From assembly GCA_024695205.1 (NCBI GenBank), contig JAILIQ010000181.1:1-34717 (forward strand): a stretch of DNA of 34,717 nt, in the 5' to 3' direction. Numbering within the stretch: the first letter of the stretch is position 1; each line of letters opens with the position of its first letter. The position numbers and the translations under genes were made by a program. This document shows positions 25,003 to 34,717 of this stretch, in pieces. Under the pieces are notes generated by a model, which worked only from the letters and a program-made list of their open reading frames with translations, ran no database searches and was not told the DNA's origin. This stretch comes from Lachnospiraceae bacterium (lineage in GTDB: Bacteria; Bacillota; Clostridia; Lachnospirales; Lachnospiraceae).

Positions 25003-25710
25003 ATGGCAGGATATAAAAGAGTATTGATAAAACTTTCCGGCGAAGCGCTTGCCGGTGAGAAGAAGACCGGATTTGACGAAGCAACATGCATAGAGGTTGC
25101 TCAGCAGATCAAAAAGATCGTTGATAACGGAACTGAGGTTGCCATCGTAATAGGCGGAGGCAATTTCTGGAGAGGACGTACAAGTGAGACCATTGACCGT
25201 TACAAGGCCGATCAGATCGGTATTCTCGCTACGGTCATGAACTGCATTTACGTATCCGAGATATTCAGATACGTCGGAATGCATACTTCCATCTATACTC
25301 CGTTCGAAATGAGCGATATGACAGAGGTATTTTCAAAGGATAAGGCCGTACATGACCTGAGTGTCGGAAGAGTGGTCTTCCTTGCAGGCGGAACAGGACA
25401 TCCTTATTTTTCGACAGATACCGCAACAGCACTCAGAGCCATCGAGCTTGAATGCGATATCATCATGATGGCCAAAGCGATCGACGGTGTTTATTCGGCC
25501 GATCCGAAACTGGATCCGACTGCAGTAAAGTACACCGATATTACTATGCAGGAGGTTGTTGAGAAGGGCCTCAAGGTTATCGATACAACCGCTTCGGCAC
25601 TTTGTCTTGAAAATAAGATGCCGCTTCTGATCTTCTCTTTGAATGAAGAGAATTCGATCGTAAACAATGCAGGCGGTGAATATACCGGTACGGTCGTTAC
25701 CGTACAATAA
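25003..25710 (+). CDS. pyrH: UMP kinase
   Basis: Phosphorylates UMP to UDP with ATP in cytoplasmic pyrimidine synthesis; a hexameric amino-acid-kinase-fold enzyme. KLSGEALAG near the start, VIGGGNFWRG for phosphate binding, the UMP-site segment ADQIGILATVMNC and VVFLAGGTGHPYFSTDTATALRA are all typical. The length of 235 residues is normal. GGGAG precedes the ATG by 12 bases. It is followed 19 bases later by frr, the standard order. It is preceded here by a bactofilin gene rather than tsf. Confidence 0.97.
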   Translation: MAGYKRVLIKLSGEALAGEKKTGFDEATCIEVAQQIKKIVDNGTEVAIVIGGGNFWRGRTSETIDRYKADQIGILATVMNCIYVSEIFRYVGMHTSIYTPFEMSDMTEVFSKDKAVHDLSVGRVVFLAGGTGHPYFSTDTATALRAIELECDIIMMAKAIDGVYSADPKLDPTAVKYTDITMQEVVEKGLKVIDTTASALCLENKMPLLIFSLNEENSIVNNAGGEYTGTVVTVQ

Positions 25711-25729
25711 CAGAATATTGGAGGTATTT

Positions 25730-26284
25730 ATGGACGACAGGATCAAACCCTACGAAGAAAAGATGAAAAAGACTATAGATGTTCTTATCGAAGAATATGC
25801 GTCAATACGTGCCGGACGTGCGAATCCGCATCTTATCGACAAGATCAAGGTTGATTATTACGGAACACCTACTCCGATCAGCCAGGTAGCGAATATCAGC
25901 GTTCCCGAAGCCCGTATCATCCAGATACAGCCCTGGGAATCCAAGATGATCAAGGAGATCAACAAAGCGATCAATATGTCAGATATCGGCATCAATCCTA
26001 CCGATGACGGCAAGACCATCAGACTTGTGTTCCCCGAACTGACCGAGGACAGACGTAAGGAACTTGCCAAGGATGTCAAGAAGAAGGCAGAGGATGCGAA
26101 GGTGGCACTCCGCAACATAAGGCGTGATGCCAACGATACCTTCAAGAAGCAGGGCAAGGCAAGCGAGATTTCGGAAGATGTTCAGAAACAGCTTGAGACC
26201 GAGATCGATAAGACTACTGAGAAGAATGTCGCTGAGATCGACAAGCTCATGGAATCAAAGTCGAAAGAGATCATGACGGTTTAA
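25730..26284 (+). CDS. frr: Ribosome recycling factor
   Basis: Releases post-termination ribosomes from mRNA together with EF-G. It is 184 residues from ATG 25730 behind TTGGAGG; the 21 extra codons in the ORF track belong to the pyrH end region. Family features are MKKTIDVLIEEYASIRAGRANP, VDYYGTPTPISQVANI and NIRRDANDTFKKQGKASEIS. The length matches the family. A strong terminator follows within eight bases of the stop. Confidence 0.97.
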   Translation: MDDRIKPYEEKMKKTIDVLIEEYASIRAGRANPHLIDKIKVDYYGTPTPISQVANISVPEARIIQIQPWESKMIKEINKAINMSDIGINPTDDGKTIRLVFPELTEDRRKELAKDVKKKAEDAKVALRNIRRDANDTFKKQGKASEISEDVQKQLETEIDKTTEKNVAEIDKLMESKSKEIMTV

Positions 26285-26291
26285 ATGTAAG

Positions 26292-26322
26292 ACGGGTCGG
26301 GGGAAGCCCCGATCCGTTTTTT
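26292..26322 (+). terminator. Intrinsic terminator between frr and uppS
   Basis: ACGGGTCGGGG pairs with CCCCGATCCGT (one G-T wobble) around the GAAG tetraloop, followed by six Ts. It is a textbook terminator inside an otherwise compact gene run, so genes from uppS onward are either expressed by read-through or from a promoter I could not identify. Confidence 0.85.
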
Positions 26323-26347
26323 CGGGGTAAGTTGGGAGGTCGTTTAC

Positions 26348-27070
26348 ATGCCAAAAAAGAAAGAAGAAGAAATAAGGATCGTTCCGCAGCATGTTGCGAT
26401 CATCCTTGACGGTAACGGCAGATGGGCGAAAAAACGCCTTCTTCCGAGAAGTGCAGGGCATTCCGCAGGGGCGAGGACTGTAGAGGACTGCTGCGAATGG
26501 GCCTGGGATCTGGGAATAAAATATCTTACCGTATATGCATTTTCGACAGAGAACTGGACCCGTTCGGAAGAAGAAGTGGGATATCTGATGAATCTGCTCC
26601 GCGAGTATATGAAGAACTGTCTGGCACGAAGCAGAAAGAACAATATGCGCGTCAGGGTGATCGGGGATAAATCAAGGCTCGACGAAGATCTTCGGGAGAG
26701 TATTTCGGAGCTTGAAAGAGAAAGCGCATCATTTACGGGACTGAATTTCCAGGTCGCGATCAATTACGGCGGAAGAGATGAGATAGTAAGGGCTGTAAGA
26801 AGGATCGTGGAGGATTCTGTAACCCTGATAGATGAGAAGACCATATCTTCATACATCGATACGGCTGACATTCCGGATCCGGATCTGCTGATCCGTACCA
26901 GCGGAGAACAACGCATCTCCAATTTCATGCTCTGGCAGATGGCTTATACGGAGTTCTATTTTACGGATGTTTTATGGCCTGATTTTTCCAAGAAGGAGCT
27001 TGAGAAGGCCATCGAATATTACGGAACGCGTGACAGAAGATTCGGTGGAAGGAAAGCAGGAGGCAATTAA
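26348..27070 (+). CDS. uppS: Undecaprenyl diphosphate synthase (cis-prenyltransferase)
   Basis: Makes the C55 lipid carrier for peptidoglycan and other wall polymers from farnesyl diphosphate and IPP. The catalytic Asp21 is in AIILDGNGRWAKKR. Other signatures are GHSAGARTVEDCCEWAWDLG, LTVYAFSTENWTRS, INYGGRDEIVRA and DPDLLIRTSGEQRISNFMLW, all of the cis-prenyltransferase family. The length of 240 residues is standard. TGGGAGG lies before the ATG. Its stop overlaps the cdsA start by one base (TAATG), so the two are translationally coupled. Confidence 0.96.
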   Translation: MPKKKEEEIRIVPQHVAIILDGNGRWAKKRLLPRSAGHSAGARTVEDCCEWAWDLGIKYLTVYAFSTENWTRSEEEVGYLMNLLREYMKNCLARSRKNNMRVRVIGDKSRLDEDLRESISELERESASFTGLNFQVAINYGGRDEIVRAVRRIVEDSVTLIDEKTISSYIDTADIPDPDLLIRTSGEQRISNFMLWQMAYTEFYFTDVLWPDFSKKELEKAIEYYGTRDRRFGGRKAGGN

Positions 27071-27933
27071 TGGCAGGAGATATAAACAAGGACAATTCAT
27101 TTCTGATAAGGTTCAGAAGCTCGGTAATTCTGATGATCATTACCGTAGCGTCGATAGTTCTCGGCGGTTATGTGCTGTGGGGAGTGACACTTATCGTAAC
27201 CCTGATAGGCATGATGGAACTGTACCGGGCAGTCAGGGCGAACAGGGCGCCGGCAGCTTTTGTAGGTTATCTGGCGGCTATAGGATGGTATGTTCTTTTA
27301 TTGCTCGGATTCATCAATAATAATAAAGGTCTGGAGGATGAAAAGGGACTTGCCCTGCTTGTTGCGGTATTTCTGATCATTCTGCTGGCATTCTATGTTT
27401 TCGGATTTCCGAAATACAATTCCGAGCAGATAACGATGATATTTTTCGGTCTGTTCTATGTTGCCTTTACGCTGTCATGCATTTTCAGGCTCAGGATCTC
27501 TGCGGGCGGAGCCTATACCGTCTGGCTGATCTTCATCGGGTCGTGGGGTGCCGATACTTCGGCATATCTTGTGGGACGAAAGATCGGCCGGCATAAGATA
27601 GTTCCGGTACTTAGCCCCAAGAAATCACTGGAAGGCTTTATCGGAGGCGTTGTCGGTGCCGTACTTATCGGGATCATCTATGCTCTGATCTTTAAAAAGC
27701 AGCTCAGTGCATATTTTGCCTCTCCGGTTATCGCATTTGCGGTGATCAGTGCTGTGGCTTCGGTCGTTTCTATGATCGGGGATCTTGCGGCAAGTGCAAT
27801 AAAGCGCAATAAGGAGATAAAGGATTACGGCAGGCTTATACCCGGGCACGGCGGAATTCTTGACCGTTTCGACAGTGTGATATTCATAGCGCCGATCGTA
27901 TATTATCTTGTGATATTTACAGGGACTGCTTAA
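27070..27933 (+). CDS. cdsA: Phosphatidate cytidylyltransferase
   Basis: An integral membrane enzyme that makes CDP-diacylglycerol from phosphatidate and CTP for phospholipid synthesis. It has multiple hydrophobic helices. The C-terminal signature is strong: SPKKSLEGFIGGVVGA, then GDLAASAIKRNKEIKDYGRL and IPGHGGILDRFDS. The 287-residue length is normal. It begins on the last base of the uppS stop codon. It is followed by a 65-base gap before dxr in which I see no terminator. Confidence 0.95.
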   Translation: MAGDINKDNSFLIRFRSSVILMIITVASIVLGGYVLWGVTLIVTLIGMMELYRAVRANRAPAAFVGYLAAIGWYVLLLLGFINNNKGLEDEKGLALLVAVFLIILLAFYVFGFPKYNSEQITMIFFGLFYVAFTLSCIFRLRISAGGAYTVWLIFIGSWGADTSAYLVGRKIGRHKIVPVLSPKKSLEGFIGGVVGAVLIGIIYALIFKKQLSAYFASPVIAFAVISAVASVVSMIGDLAASAIKRNKEIKDYGRLIPGHGGILDRFDSVIFIAPIVYYLVIFTGTA

Positions 27934-27998
27934 GAAAACGCTTAATGCAGTGTTTCCATTTCTGCAGATGAATTGTCAAAATGAGGTAAAATACAGTC

Positions 27999-29183
27999 AT
28001 GAAGAATGACAGGAATATATGCATTCTCGGCTCTACCGGATCGATAGGGAAACAGACCCTTGAAACGATCTTAACATACGGCGGTTTTAAGGTCCGGTCA
28101 CTTGCCGCAAAGAGCAGTATAGATCTGCTTGAAGAACAGATAAGGGCATTTAAACCCGAGAGTGTATGTGTATATGATGAAGATAAGGCTTCTGAGCTTA
28201 AAAGCAGAGTTGCCGATACCGATGTGCGCATCCTGTCGGGGATGGAAGGCCTGATCCGGCTGGCATCGGATCCCGACAATGATCTTGTTGTAACGGCTCT
28301 TGTGGGAATGATCGGTATAAGACCTACGATCGCTGCGATAGAGGCAGGCTGTGACGTGGCGCTTGCCAATAAGGAAACTCTTGTGACGGCCGGACATCTG
28401 ATAATGCCGATGCTCGCTGAAAAAGGAGTCAGGCTCTTTCCGATAGACAGTGAGCATTCCGCTATCTTTCAGTGTCTTCAGGGATATATGGGACCTGACG
28501 GATCATATCCATACAACGCCGATATCGACAGTATACTGCTCACTGCTTCGGGCGGACCGTTCAGAGGCATGTCATATGATGAACTGAAGACAAAAACAGC
28601 CACGGACGCACTGAAGCATCCGAACTGGTCAATGGGCAGCAAGATAACGATAGATTCCGCGAGCATGGTCAATAAAGCGCTTGAGGTCATGGAGGCCCGG
28701 TGGCTGTTCGGAGTCGAACCCGACAGGATCAGGATACTGATCCAGCCGAAGAGCATAATTCATTCGGCAGTGCAGTTCAAGGACGGTTCGATAATAGCGC
28801 AGATGGGACTTCCCGATATGAAGCTTCCGATCAGATATGCGCTGTATTACCCCTTAAGACAGCCCGAACACGGCAGGATGCTGGATCTGCTCGAGCTTAC
28901 CGGACTTGAATTTGACAAACCGGATTATGAAACCTTCAGGGGACTGAAGCTGGGACTCGATGCTATCAGGCAGGGTGGCAGCATCTGTACGGTATTTAAT
29001 GCCGCCAACGAATATGCGGTTGCCAGATTCCTTGAAGGAAAGATCGGATTTACCGATATTTACGATATTATCGGCGAATGTATGAAAAGGCATGTCAACA
29101 TTGCTTCACCGTCACTTGAGGACATCTTAAGGACCGAAGAAGAAGCATATGCCAATGCCAAAGAGTACTGTAAACAGCTCTGA
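27999..29183 (+). CDS. dxr: 1-deoxy-D-xylulose-5-phosphate reductoisomerase
   Basis: Second enzyme of the MEP isoprenoid pathway; converts DXP to MEP using NADPH and a divalent metal. The NADPH loop is ILGSTGSIGKQTLETI. The metal and substrate region includes ALANKETLVTAGHLI, FPIDSEHSAIFQCL and LTASGGPFRGM. The flexible loop region HPNWSMGSKITIDSASMVNK and VMEARWLFG follow. The length of 394 residues is normal. GAGG is about 10 bases before the ATG. It precedes rseP and ispG; with ispG, two steps of the same pathway sit in this run, alongside uppS, which uses the product. Confidence 0.97.
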   Translation: MKNDRNICILGSTGSIGKQTLETILTYGGFKVRSLAAKSSIDLLEEQIRAFKPESVCVYDEDKASELKSRVADTDVRILSGMEGLIRLASDPDNDLVVTALVGMIGIRPTIAAIEAGCDVALANKETLVTAGHLIMPMLAEKGVRLFPIDSEHSAIFQCLQGYMGPDGSYPYNADIDSILLTASGGPFRGMSYDELKTKTATDALKHPNWSMGSKITIDSASMVNKALEVMEARWLFGVEPDRIRILIQPKSIIHSAVQFKDGSIIAQMGLPDMKLPIRYALYYPLRQPEHGRMLDLLELTGLEFDKPDYETFRGLKLGLDAIRQGGSICTVFNAANEYAVARFLEGKIGFTDIYDIIGECMKRHVNIASPSLEDILRTEEEAYANAKEYCKQL

Positions 29184-29260
29184 CCGGAAAATCGACCGGA
29201 GTAAGGCAGAAACTGTGGTTCTGCGGTAACAAAAAGAACATTCGGAGGAAAGTAAAGAAA

Positions 29261-30571
29261 ATGAGCACTTTAGTCAGTATTCTGATCGGAATATTGATAT
29301 TCTGTATTATCATCGTATTTCATGAATTCGGGCATCTGATAGTCGCCAAGAGAAACGGGATCAGTGTTCCCGAGTTTCAGGTGGGCTTCGGACCCAAACT
29401 TTGTAAATTCAAGATAGGCGAGACCGAGTACAGTATCAGGCTGATCCTGTTCGGCGGTGCGTGCAAGATGCTGGGCGAGGACGGCGACGCTATCGGTGAT
29501 GAGAGAGCGTTTACCTCAAAAGGTCCCTGGGCAAGGCTGGCTACCGTATTTGCCGGTCCTTTCTTCAATTTTATCCTGGCATTTGTCATTGCAATGATCG
29601 TGATCGGGATCGTCGGTTATGATCCGGCCTATGTAATATCCGTTTCGGAAAACAGCCCGGCATACGAGGCAGGACTTGAAAAAGGCGACATAATCACCCG
29701 TTTCGGCAAGAGCAATATCGCTATAGGCAGGGAGCTTGCGGCTTATTTTACATTCAAGGAGCTGAACGGGGAAACTCTTTCGGTAAATTATTTAAGAAAC
29801 GGTGAGGAATTCTCAACTACACTCACTCCAAAGCTTACAAGGTCATATAAGCTCGGTTTCTATTACAATGCTTCGGATGATCCCTGCAGGATCAGCTCGC
29901 TCGTTAAGGACGGTGTGCTCGAAAAAGCGGGTGTAAGACCTGACGACTGCATCGTTTCCATCAACGGATTCGAAGTTACGAGCGGAAAAGCCTTCAGCGA
30001 ATATATCGGCGAACATCCGATGGACGGGTCGGAGCTTGAGCTGACATTTGACAGGAATGGTGATATATATACGCTTTCCCTGATCCCCGAATATGTCGAG
30101 GACTATGTCACAGGCTTTACCTATAATGCCAACGGACGTGAAAAGACGACACCCCTAAATGTCGTTAAATACTCGTTTTATGAGGTCAGATACTGGATCG
30201 TAAATACAGTGAAGAGCCTTGGAATGCTCTTCAGGGGCAAATTAAGTTCGGATGATCTGGGTGGACCTGTCAGGATCGTATCGGAGCTTGAAAATACGGT
30301 TGAAGAGTCGAAAAGCGACGGTCTTCTGTATGTGGTCCTTAACCTTATGAACTGGGCGATCCTGCTCAGCGCCAACCTGGGTGTTATGAACCTTCTTCCA
30401 ATCCCGGCGCTTGACGGCGGAAGACTTATTTTCATACTGATCGAACTGATAAGGGGAAAGGCTGTGCCTGCCGAAAAAGAGGGCATGGTTCACGCGATAG
30501 GTATCATGGTCCTTATGGCACTTATGGTATTTGTATTCTTTAACGATATCCGGAACGTATTTTTCAGATAA
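29261..30571 (+). CDS. rseP: Site-2 zinc metalloprotease, RseP/RasP family
   Basis: An intramembrane protease that cuts membrane-spanning segments, for example of anti-sigma factors and leftover signal peptides. The zinc site HEFGH (21-25) lies in the first membrane helix. The third ligand Asp lies in NLLPIPALDGGRL near the C-terminus. Between them are two tandem PDZ-like domains (VSENSPAYEAGLEKGDIITR and LVKDGVLEKAGVRPDDCIVS). Its 436 residues are slightly longer than single-PDZ Gram-positive RasP, in line with the double PDZ as in E. coli RseP. GGAGGAAAG precedes the ATG. It sits between dxr and ispG, the conserved order. The native substrate is unknown. Confidence 0.94.
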   Translation: MSTLVSILIGILIFCIIIVFHEFGHLIVAKRNGISVPEFQVGFGPKLCKFKIGETEYSIRLILFGGACKMLGEDGDAIGDERAFTSKGPWARLATVFAGPFFNFILAFVIAMIVIGIVGYDPAYVISVSENSPAYEAGLEKGDIITRFGKSNIAIGRELAAYFTFKELNGETLSVNYLRNGEEFSTTLTPKLTRSYKLGFYYNASDDPCRISSLVKDGVLEKAGVRPDDCIVSINGFEVTSGKAFSEYIGEHPMDGSELELTFDRNGDIYTLSLIPEYVEDYVTGFTYNANGREKTTPLNVVKYSFYEVRYWIVNTVKSLGMLFRGKLSSDDLGGPVRIVSELENTVEESKSDGLLYVVLNLMNWAILLSANLGVMNLLPIPALDGGRLIFILIELIRGKAVPAEKEGMVHAIGIMVLMALMVFVFFNDIRNVFFR

Positions 30572-30605
30572 AACCGAAAACAGGATTAAACCGAGGTAGA
30601 CCAAT

Positions 30606-31670
30606 ATGGAGCGGCGTTTTTCACATGAAGTAAATATCGGGGGCGTTTTGATCGGGGGGAACAATCCTATCGCGATCCAGTCGATGACCAATACCAGAAC
30701 CGGAGATGTTGCTTCTACAGTCAGGCAGATCGAGGAACTGACACGGGAAGGCTGCGATATAATAAGATGCGCTGTCCCCGATATGGAAGCTGCCGCAGCG
30801 ATCCGTCAGATCAGGCAACAGATAAGGATCCCGCTTGTAGCGGATATTCATTTTGATCACAGGCTTGCGCTTGCCGCTATAGAAAACGGCGCGGACAAGA
30901 TAAGGATCAACCCGGGCAATATCGGCGGCGAGGATAAGGTACGCGAAGTCGTTGCGGCCGCAAAAGAACGGGGAATACCGATAAGGGTCGGAGTCAATTC
31001 GGGTTCGCTTGAGAAGAAATATATTGAAAAATACGGACATGTGACCGCTGAGGGGCTTGTGGAAAGCGCTCTCGGCCAAGTCGAAATGCTTGAAAGATTC
31101 GATTTCCACGACATTGTGATCAGCATCAAGGCATCCGATGTCATGACTTCCGTAAAAGCCCATGAGCTTATCGCTTCACGTACAGACCATCCGCTTCATG
31201 TCGGTATTACCGAAACCGGGTCAGTTATCGCTGGCAATATAAAATCCGCCGTGGGTATCGGCATCATTCTTCATGAAGGCATCGGAGATACCATCAGGGT
31301 GTCCCTTACCGCCGATCCGGTGGAGGAGATCCGTTCCGCCAAAAACATTTTAAGAGCACTCGGAATGAAAAAAGGCGGCATAGAGGTGGTTTCATGTCCG
31401 ACCTGCGGCCGGACAAGGATCGATCTGATCAGTCTTGCAGGTCAGGTTGAAAAGATGACTGCGGATTATGATCTTAATATCAAGGTAGCAGTAATGGGCT
31501 GTGCAGTCAACGGACCTGGAGAAGCCCGTGAGGCTGATATCGGGATCGCCGGCGGGAACGGGGAAGGTCTGATCTTCAAGAAGGGCGAGATAATAAAAAA
31601 AGTGCCCGAACAGGATCTGCTCGCGGAACTTAAGGCAATGCTTGACGAAATAAGCGCGGAAAAACGCTGA
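30606..31670 (+). CDS. ispG: 4-hydroxy-3-methylbut-2-en-1-yl diphosphate synthase
   Basis: An iron-sulfur enzyme of the MEP pathway that turns ME-cPP into HMBPP. The N-terminal barrel begins GGVLIGGNNPIAIQSMTNTR. KIRINPGNIGG is the conserved phosphate-binding segment. The [4Fe-4S] ligands are C264 and C267 in SCPTCGRT, C299 in MGCAVNGPGE and probably E306. The length of 354 residues is typical of the bacterial two-domain form. GAGG lies about 10 bases before the ATG. It starts 34 bases after rseP and 30 bases before polC, consistent with one transcript. Confidence 0.97.
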   Translation: MERRFSHEVNIGGVLIGGNNPIAIQSMTNTRTGDVASTVRQIEELTREGCDIIRCAVPDMEAAAAIRQIRQQIRIPLVADIHFDHRLALAAIENGADKIRINPGNIGGEDKVREVVAAAKERGIPIRVGVNSGSLEKKYIEKYGHVTAEGLVESALGQVEMLERFDFHDIVISIKASDVMTSVKAHELIASRTDHPLHVGITETGSVIAGNIKSAVGIGIILHEGIGDTIRVSLTADPVEEIRSAKNILRALGMKKGGIEVVSCPTCGRTRIDLISLAGQVEKMTADYDLNIKVAVMGCAVNGPGEAREADIGIAGGNGEGLIFKKGEIIKKVPEQDLLAELKAMLDEISAEKR

Positions 31671-31700
31671 CTTAAGTCTAAGTAAAAGCAGGGGGTTACT

Positions 31701-34700
31701 ATGTTATTTTTTGAGATTTTCGATAATCTCAGCCTGGATCTGAAACTGAAGAAACTTTTCGAACGGGTAAAGGTTCTAAGCTATAAGAGACTGAATGACT
31801 CAGGCTGTGTTGACATATATCTTGAATCCGACAGCTTTATTCCGAGAAAATGCACAAACAGGGTGGAAGAGGCTATATTAAGGAGTTATACGGATTCAAG
31901 CATAGAAAGAGTAAAACTGAAAATTGCATACAGCTTTGCAAAGGGACGTTCTTTTGAAGATCTGTGGAGGGAATACCATTCATATCTTGATTCGGAAATA
32001 TATGCGATAAGTCCTGTTTTCGGAGATACTTACCGCAATTCGAACGTCAGCGCGGAGAACGGCATCATAACACTCAGCCTGTATGATACTCCAATAATCA
32101 GAAACCGCATCCAGACACTGTGCGGGCTTATAGAAGAGATGTGGGAAGAAATGTTTGGTTCGCGCATCGCCTGCATTTATAAGCTAAAAAAAGAAGAAGT
32201 ACAGGAAGATTCCCAGACATATCTTTCGCGTTACAGTGCCAGCCTTGAAAGATATAAAGCTTCAGAAGGCCGAAGCGAAACCGTATCGGTGGTAGCAACC
32301 GAAGAAGTTGAACAAGATGACGGTTCCGTAAAGACCGGTCAGGAAAATGCAAGTGTTGAAATAAAGAAGCAAAGTACTCCCAAAGCCTCTTCAAATACGA
32401 CAGCAGGCCGGGAGCAGACAAAACAGGCCAATACCGAGAAACCCAAGAACGATACTCCGTACAGGAACAATAATTCCGGTTATAAGAGAAAGCCCATGCC
32501 CAAAGAGGATCCCGACGTTATTTACGGACGAAACGTTGAGGGCGATCTTGTAAATATTTCCGATCTGTATGAGGGAATAGGTATCTGTGTTATCCGCGGA
32601 ATGGTACTGCTTGACGGCGAAGAGCGTGAGCTGAGCAACGGCAAGGTGATACTGACCTTCGATATCACCGATTTTACATATTCGATCAGATGTAAGGCTT
32701 TTATAGACAAGGAAGAATACAGTCAGATAAAGGACAATTTCAAACAGGGAAAGTTCCTGAGGGTCAAGGGCGTTCCCGAATACGATTCATACGCCAAGGA
32801 CATTCTTTTCCAGCATCTTGACGGAATAAAACCCGACAGCGATTTCCGTAAAAAACGCATGGATGATGCTGAAGTAAAACGTATCGAGCTTCACTGCCAT
32901 TCGAAGATGAGTGACATGGACGGTGTTGCCAGTGTCGAGGATCTTATCAAGACAGCCATGAGCTGGGGACACCGCGGAATAGCGCTTACGGACCACGGTG
33001 TGGTGCAGGGATTTACCGATGCGCTGCATACTCTTGACAAGATCATCAGTAAGAGTGAAGGCGAAAAGAAGAAAAAAGCCGAGGAATTCAAGATGATCTA
33101 CGGCTGTGAGGGTTATATCGTCGATGATGAACCCGACAGCGTAACCGACTCAAAGGGAAAGGTTTTCCACAAGCAGGAGGACGGTACCTACAGCCGTGAG
33201 GATCTGTTAAAGATGCCGGTATATCACATCATACTGCTGTGTAAAAACGATATCGGAAGGATCAATCTTTACAGGCTTGTTTCGGAGTCGCACCTTAACT
33301 ATTTTTCAAGACGTCCGAGGATCCCGAAGTCTCTGCTTGCCAAATACCGTGAAGGCATCATAGTCGGTTCGGCATGCGAGGCCGGAGAACTGTTCAGAGC
33401 CGTAATACACAACAAGCCCGACGAAGAGATAGAAAGGATCGCAAGATTTTACGATTATTACGAGATCCAGCAGATCGGCAACAACCGCTACATGATCGAG
33501 GATGACCACTTCCCCGAAGTCAATTCCGATGAGGACTTGAAAAGAGCCAATAAGAGGATATCGGAACTTGCCGATGCCGACGGAAAGCTCTGTATCGCAA
33601 CCTGTGATGTGCATTTTATAAATCCCGAGGATGAAGTGTTCAGAAGGATACTCATGTATTCCAAGGGTTTTGAGGATGCAGACAATCAGGCACCGCTGTA
33701 TCTGCATACGACGGAAGAGATGATCGACGAATGCCGGTATCTTGGGGATAAAAAAGCATATGAGGTCGTTGTGACCAACCCGAACCTGATATTTGACATG
33801 TGTGACAGGATCGTTCCGGTAAGGCCCGATAAATGTCCGCCTGTCATTGAGGATTCGGATAAGACCTTAAGAGAGATCTGTGAGAGAAAGGTTACCGAGA
33901 CCTATGGTGAAAATCTTCATCCTATAATCCGCGAAAGGCTTGACAGAGAGCTGAATTCCATTATAAAAAACGGTTTTGCGGTTATGTATATCATAGCGCA
34001 GAAGCTGGTATGGAAATCAAATGAGGACGGGTATCTGGTTGGATCGCGTGGTTCGGTAGGTTCCTCATTTGTCGCGACAATGGCGGGTATTACCGAGGTT
34101 AATCCGCTTCCGGGCCATTATTACTGCAAGAAATGCCATTATATTGATTTTGATTCGGAAACTGTCAGGGAATACGGCCAGTTCTCCGGATTTGATATGC
34201 CGGACATGAATTGTCCGGTCTGCGGCGAGCCGCTGATCAAACAGGGGCAGAATATCCCGTTTGAAACGTTCCTTGGTTTTAACGGGGATAAGGAGCCTGA
34301 TATCGATCTGAACTTTTCGGGAGAATATCAGTCCAAAGCCCATGATTATACCGAAGTTATCTTTGGTGCTGGACAGACCTTCAAAGCCGGTACGGTCGGT
34401 ACGGTAGCCGATAAGACTGCGGTCGCCTACGCCAAGAAATACTGTGCGGAGCATTCGCAGGCTGTCAATGACGCCGAACTGTTCAGGATGGCTTCGGGCT
34501 GTATTGATGTCAAGAAAACGACCGGACAGCATCCCGGCGGTATAGTCGTGCTACCGATAGGCGAGGATATCAATACATTTACTCCGGTCCAGCATCCGGC
34601 CAATAAAGACGTTCCGATAGTAACAACTCATTTTGATTATCATTCGATCGATCATAACCTGCTGAAGCTTGATATCCTCGGTCATGATGATCCTACAATG

Positions 34701-34717
34701 ATCAGGATGCTTGAGGA
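31701..34717 (+). CDS. polC: DNA polymerase III PolC alpha subunit, 5' part, lacking the inserted exonuclease domain
   Basis: Replicative polymerase of Gram-positive bacteria; the gene runs off the window after about 1005 codons. AGGGGG precedes the ATG. PolC N-terminal domain is about 1-170, then a Gln/Lys/Thr-rich linker, an OB domain (about 270-385, GICVIRGMVLLDGE) and PHP from 394. PHP ligands look intact: H398 and H400 (HCHSKMSD), D431 and H432 (TDHG), E470 (GCEGY), H509, C559 (GSACEAGELF), D636 and H638. The usual insert between the PHP halves, a DnaQ-type exonuclease of about 180 residues starting with DxETTGL, is missing: YIVDD (472-476) is joined to VYHIILL (507) by about 31 residues. 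After PHP come the zinc module (CKKC...CPVCG), GEYQSKAHDYTEVIFG, TGQHPGG and LDILGHDDPTM, all classic PolC. The frame is open throughout, so this is a domain loss and not a frameshift. Confidence 0.95.
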   Translation, partial: MLFFEIFDNLSLDLKLKKLFERVKVLSYKRLNDSGCVDIYLESDSFIPRKCTNRVEEAILRSYTDSSIERVKLKIAYSFAKGRSFEDLWREYHSYLDSEIYAISPVFGDTYRNSNVSAENGIITLSLYDTPIIRNRIQTLCGLIEEMWEEMFGSRIACIYKLKKEEVQEDSQTYLSRYSASLERYKASEGRSETVSVVATEEVEQDDGSVKTGQENASVEIKKQSTPKASSNTTAGREQTKQANTEKPKNDTPYRNNNSGYKRKPMPKEDPDVIYGRNVEGDLVNISDLYEGIGICVIRGMVLLDGEERELSNGKVILTFDITDFTYSIRCKAFIDKEEYSQIKDNFKQGKFLRVKGVPEYDSYAKDILFQHLDGIKPDSDFRKKRMDDAEVKRIELHCHSKMSDMDGVASVEDLIKTAMSWGHRGIALTDHGVVQGFTDALHTLDKIISKSEGEKKKKAEEFKMIYGCEGYIVDDEPDSVTDSKGKVFHKQEDGTYSREDLLKMPVYHIILLCKNDIGRINLYRLVSESHLNYFSRRPRIPKSLLAKYREGIIVGSACEAGELFRAVIHNKPDEEIERIARFYDYYEIQQIGNNRYMIEDDHFPEVNSDEDLKRANKRISELADADGKLCIATCDVHFINPEDEVFRRILMYSKGFEDADNQAPLYLHTTEEMIDECRYLGDKKAYEVVVTNPNLIFDMCDRIVPVRPDKCPPVIEDSDKTLREICERKVTETYGENLHPIIRERLDRELNSIIKNGFAVMYIIAQKLVWKSNEDGYLVGSRGSVGSSFVATMAGITEVNPLPGHYYCKKCHYIDFDSETVREYGQFSGFDMPDMNCPVCGEPLIKQGQNIPFETFLGFNGDKEPDIDLNFSGEYQSKAHDYTEVIFGAGQTFKAGTVGTVADKTAVAYAKKYCAEHSQAVNDAELFRMASGCIDVKKTTGQHPGGIVVLPIGEDINTFTPVQHPANKDVPIVTTHFDYHSIDHNLLKLDILGHDDPTMIRMLE

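Follow-up and report, generated by a model that had tools for sequence, protein, structure and literature searches.

An Exo-less PolC at the contig end

The analyzed window, a stretch of 34,717 nucleotides from the genome of a gut/rumen Lachnospiraceae bacterium, ends in a polC gene whose product carries no DnaQ-type exonuclease (Exo) domain, which raises the question of what proofreads for this polymerase. The polC open reading frame (31701..34715, plus strand) comprises 1005 codons and is open at the contig end. It was assigned by the NCBIfam model NF001688 (PolC type) and by its Pfam domains. The deduced protein reached 880.9 bits against NF001688, above the cut-off of 873 despite the absent C terminus; against TIGR01405 the contig-cut protein reached 804 of 1043. 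Domain analysis revealed the PolC N-terminal domain I at residues 2 to 60 (31704..31880, plus strand; PF14480, 28.3 bits, cut-off 22) and an OB-fold at residues 311 to 360 (32631..32780, plus strand; PF01336, 5.1e-6). The OB-fold score of 26.8 bits is slightly below the cut-off of 27, and the same domain scored 31.3 bits, above the cut-off, in the close relative L008. PF02811 and ligand alignment placed the first half of the PHP domain at residues 396 to 476 (32886..33128, plus strand), with ligands H398, H400, D431, H432, and E470, and the second half at residues 507 to 638 (33219..33614, plus strand), with ligands H509, C559, D636, and H638. The polymerase core follows as a DNA_pol3_alpha match at residues 722 to 914 (33864..34442, plus strand; PF07733, 2.3e-57). 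In the genus, the PolC palm motif PDIDLNF is intact, and a clamp-like motif is found at the C terminus.

With an N-terminal domain and an OB fold before the PHP domain and a PHP/Pol core scoring above the PolC model, the protein is a PolC-type DNA polymerase III. The usual PolC hallmark, a DnaQ-type Exo inside the PHP domain, is absent from the window protein and from its relatives L008 and L195. The window PolC corresponds to the Exo-less variant of Clostridia and Negativicutes with a DnaE1 partner (Timinskas et al. 2013), and a DnaE1-like gene was found on contig C154 of the window genome. Directly 5' of polC lies ispG (30606..31670, plus strand; TIGR00612, 422 bits), the two genes closing a run from 25003 to 34715 that consists of pyrH, uppS, a CDP-diglyceride synthase-like gene, dxr, rseP, ispG, and polC. 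An ispG-like reading frame is also present 5' of polC in L189, from a relative with a dead Exo (G039).

The Exo domain is absent throughout the genus

In the window PolC, the first PHP half ends with YIVDD at residue 476 (base 33128) and the second begins with VYHIILL at residue 507 (33219). Alignment with an Exo-bearing PolC revealed a linker of exactly 30 residues (residues 477 to 506; 33129..33218, plus strand) at the Exo position of other PolCs; the preliminary description had correctly located this junction and estimated it at about 31 residues. At the same point, Exo-bearing Lachnospiraceae have approximately 180 to 210 residues with DxETTG, HNxxFD, and HRAxxDA motifs. The PHP domain was recognized by Pfam as a single contiguous PF02811 match (residues 396 to 584, 5.8e-30), and PF00929 (RNase_T) gave no match in the 1005 codons even at an E value of 0.1, which bears out the earlier reading that no Exo motif exists in the available sequence.

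That reading could have failed through an Exo in the missing C-terminal part or through a segment lost from the assembly at 33.12 to 33.23 kb. In the full-length relatives L008 (1425 amino acids [aa]) and L195 (1329 aa), no RNase_T match was obtained at E values of up to 1, C terminus included, while the Exo-bearing L014, used as positive control in the same run, gave 3.1e-38. Across 580 core PHP-Pol columns, L008 (counted as L122, on the same contig) shares 91% identity with the window. The PHP junction was unbroken in all 24 sampled genomes of the window genus, with linkers of 30 to 35 residues (25 to 35 in the window clade as aligned). Because of these 24 concordant junctions and the complete relatives without RNase_T, both a lost segment and a C-terminal Exo were ruled out. 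An assembly gap, chimera, or pseudogene, to which a metagenome-assembled genome (MAG) of 86% completeness, 6.8% contamination, and 371 contigs might be prone, can be dismissed, as the same junction occurs in the 24 genomes and in L008 to L013 from separate isolates or bins, and Exo-less PolC frames stay open over 1,329 to 1,425 aa. The domain missing from the window clade amounts to about 160 residues and is present in its neighbors, so that chance is no issue. The genus carries a genuine PolC without a DnaQ-type Exo, and its loss is virtually certain.

History and distribution of Exo loss

For phylogenetic trees, the Exo columns were removed from the alignment and only those of PHP and the polymerase were used. 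The window genus, G189, and G044 formed an Exo-less clade (support 96/86) nested inside Exo-bearing Lachnospiraceae (support 100/98). A constrained tree with all Exo-less PolCs in a single clade was rejected (p-AU 0.0007); one common origin is therefore refuted, and Exo was lost more than once. On these trees, the loss in the window clade is secondary and independent of the other losses.

The sister of the clade (support 92/97) consists of two species, G039 and G607. Their PolC (L189:1456-5847 and L210) contains an in-frame insert that is still recognizable as Exo, with its catalytic motifs destroyed: FDxETTG is changed to SLxTDGTD, the HN of HNxxFD and the H of HRAxxDA are lost, and approximately 30 residues are deleted. 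Pfam RNase_T did not recognize this decayed insert in either species, and no other RNase_T was found in the G039 genome. The sister lineage with its dead Exo hints at how the loss proceeded: in the simplest history, Exo was first inactivated and later deleted. Since the joining branch has a support of 92/97, decay in G039/G607 and deletion in the window clade may also have been two separate events.

The view that this lineage lost a built-in proofreader is thus supported by the Exo-bearing PolCs surrounding the clade and by the decayed Exo of its sister. The reverse history, in which Exo-less PolC is ancestral here and the neighbors acquired Exo, is very improbable: Exo-less PolCs are widespread across other clostridial families, and the Exo-less G169 is placed close to the base of the family tree as sampled, but the nested position of the window clade, the decayed Exo of its sister, and the rejection of a single Exo-less clade all speak against it.

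Of the 200 Lachnospiraceae genomes surveyed, which span 199 genera, 6 genomes from 5 genera showed an unbroken junction, one of these junctions (G080) representing a paralogue. G080 encodes an Exo-less PolC of 1059 aa (L194, contig C9) with all PHP ligands kept. Because an Exo-bearing PolC of 1524 aa is also present, the Exo-less copy is a paralogue; G080 was rejected as an Exo-less genome and omitted from the counts and the final tree. Across the class Clostridia, the junction was unbroken in at least 49 of 391 genomes, which belong to about 12 families among the matches listed. This survey is consistent with Timinskas et al. (PMC3919608), according to whom 6% of PolCs lack Exo, a single one of them falling outside Clostridia and Negativicutes; within PolC-plus-DnaE1 systems, the Exo-less share is 16%.

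The PHP domain of Exo-less PolC

The preliminary description had noted that the PHP metal ligands appear kept, and all nine are indeed present in the window. In 62/62 Exo-less PolCs, among them that of the window, alignment revealed the complete set (HHDHEHCDH). In the PHP domain of Mycobacterium tuberculosis DnaE1, which proofreads, these nine residues coordinate three zinc ions (PMC5636811), and a 2026 survey scores PHP as active by the nine-ligand motif. The ligands are likewise intact in 96/96 Exo-bearing clostridial PolCs; their conservation therefore predates the loss of Exo and is not by itself evidence of proofreading. The ratio of PHP to Pol divergence was 1.60 in Exo-less PolCs versus 1.71 in Exo-bearing relatives, which indicates that PHP evolves no faster and is not under relaxation. 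Within the genus, the PHP region of PolC is 68 to 87% identical to that of the window.

An AlphaFold2 model of the PHP region had an overall pLDDT of 93.8 and placed short strands within the linker (block pLDDT approximately 95 to 97). The best Foldseek matches of this model were the PolC structures of Geobacillus kaustophilus (TMq 0.75), in which the chain is without Exo. In M. tuberculosis DnaE1, access to the PHP site runs along a loop of 29 residues, which corresponds to the DnaQ insertion point in PolC (PMC5636811). The window linker is similar in size and lies at the same position. In G. kaustophilus PolC, one PHP ligand is mutated and PHP exonuclease activity is absent (PMC5636811).

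Free RNase_T proteins in the genus and the class

An inventory of RNase_T proteins addressed the alternative of a trans-acting proofreader for PolC, namely a free DnaQ-like exonuclease comparable to epsilon of E. coli. Matches over the cut-off were obtained in 9 of the 24 genus genomes and in none of the other 15, including G206 (100% complete) and G204 (99%); the window genome (86% complete) also had no match over the cut-off. One match, in G202, was a fragment of an Exo-bearing PolC on another contig and is probably contamination. Rv2179c-like exonucleases (PF16473) were not found over the cut-off in the genus. Seven genomes (G134, G202, G207, G208, G215, G216, and G218) encode a free DEDDh exonuclease of about 230 to 270 aa. 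It combines an RNase_T domain with DEDDh-type motifs and, unless contig-cut, carries a topoisomerase-type zinc ribbon. The ribbon was confirmed by Pfam in L149, the G134 protein being the one scanned. Stand-alone DEDDh exonucleases with this C-terminal C4 zinc ribbon (L148 to L153 and L156) are patchy in the genus and possibly play a role in repair.

At the level of the class, free RNase_T proteins (besides PolC) were found in 5/34 Exo-less versus 27/36 Exo-bearing genomes, both sets being drawn from the leading entries of the class match list rather than at random. The contrast gave a Fisher P value of 3e-7 by genome and of 0.005 to 0.03 by genus, with kinship not otherwise corrected. Free RNase_T proteins are rarer in Exo-less genomes; another DnaQ therefore does not, as a rule, make up for the lost Exo, and compensation in trans was rejected as a general rule. 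The earlier suggestion of a separate DnaQ is thus an unlikely overall solution, given genomes such as the window genome, G206, and G204, and may apply to the part of the genus that encodes a free DEDDh exonuclease. We consider it improbable on the whole. The domain architecture of the free exonucleases is unlike that of epsilon.

PHP as the putative remaining proofreader

We propose that the DnaQ-type Exo was lost by active-site decay followed by deletion; the PHP domain is now uninterrupted and has the complete ligand set for a trinuclear metal site. PolC would now proofread through its PHP exonuclease, as M. tuberculosis DnaE1 does, with the intact PHP domain of the cell's own DnaE1 and MutS mismatch repair as backup. 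The PHP ligands of DnaE1 are intact in the window genome (G000) and in G206. MutS-family matches were obtained in 24/24 genus genomes, 21 of them above the mutS1 cut-off. From the conserved metal site and the analogy with DnaE1, PHP is rather probably the remaining proofreader of PolC in the genus; we infer here that it is catalytically active and that it receives the primer end. PHP could instead have been retained to serve as a phosphoesterase in some other process or to stabilize the protein, and the free DEDDh exonuclease of the seven genomes could act in trans, which counts against proofreading by PHP.

The main rival explanation is that PolC is minor in bulk synthesis. DnaE1 with its own PHP would then be the main replicase, the PolC proofreader would be dispensable, and the PolC PHP would be mainly structural. 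DnaE1 with an intact PHP is present, Exo-less PolCs are clostridial, and a minor PolC in bacteria with both PolC and DnaE1 is raised as a possibility by Timinskas et al. (PMC3919608). Against this stand the presence of PolC in 24/24 genus genomes, the identity of its PHP region among them, its intact palm and clamp-like motifs, and PHP ligands without decay. We consider a minor PolC unlikely, though a serious contender, and retain PHP proofreading as the preferred explanation. The broader proposal is more tentative, at somewhat less than an even chance: in the genus and in many other clostridial lineages, the PHP exonucleases of PolC and DnaE1 may be the sole proofreaders of the replisome, the genome encoding none of the DnaQ family, and this state may have arisen via a PolC that still carried a catalytically dead DnaQ domain.

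The PHP domain of G. kaustophilus PolC shows no activity, and in Exo-bearing PolCs any proofreading by PHP is masked by Exo. Species with neither a PolC Exo nor a detectable RNase_T protein remove both confounders, and the genus is thus a good test ground for proofreading by a metal-binding PHP. The role of PolC in bacteria with both polymerases was left open by the 2013 paper (PMC3919608). Pipelines that define PolC via an RNase_T insertion, such as that of a 2025 PolC-inhibitor study (PMC11963600), would miss Exo-less PolCs. The 2026 survey states that in Pol III alpha subunits it is PHP, not DnaQ, that gets inactivated; a PolC with a dead DnaQ would, if true, be an exception.

Comparison with known polymerases

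Exo-less PolC is, as a kind, known since 2013, when it was reported for Clostridia and Negativicutes (PMC3919608). Those proteins resemble the window PolC in having NTD, OB, PHP, and Pol3 domains and no Exo, in co-occurring with DnaE1, and in keeping the PHP ligands. The genus is not named in its main text, and the nested loss, the dead-Exo sister, and the genome-wide DnaQ inventory are added here. The G. kaustophilus crystal construct (3F2B/C/D) likewise combines PHP and polymerase without Exo and is the best fold match, with a contiguous sequence match, but it is a laboratory construct from an Exo-bearing enzyme with 1/9 PHP ligands mutated and no exonuclease activity. M. tuberculosis DnaE1 (5LEW, 7PU7) shares the nine-ligand PHP, the lack of DnaQ in the chain, and, in the corresponding position, a loop about 30 residues long. 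It is of the DnaE1 type and not a PolC, and its PHP activity is demonstrated, whereas that of the window PolC is predicted. Exo-bearing PolCs (9QPC, 9QRL, 9QRN) are orthologous polymerases with Exo inserted in PHP, and the window sequence match breaks at Exo. In the open literature, no paper naming an Exo-less PolC in Lachnospiraceae was found. As far as searched, and survey supplements aside, the new details are the sister lineage with a decayed Exo, a nested loss that occurred independently of others, and the absence of RNase_T from near-complete genomes.

Accessory PolC-like proteins

The window MAG encodes a second, short PolC-like protein of 739 aa (L144:3652-5868; contig C9:16651-18867). 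It has no NTD, OB, or Exo domain and keeps the palm motif as PDIDINF. Its PHP ligands are broken: TDHG is changed to TDCG, and the YH histidine, the SAC cysteine, and the last histidine are lost. A similar protein of 861 aa is encoded in G216 (L146) and is only 37% identical to the L144 protein. Both look like accessory PolC paralogues. They may represent a PolC counterpart of DnaE2, although they may also derive from contamination.
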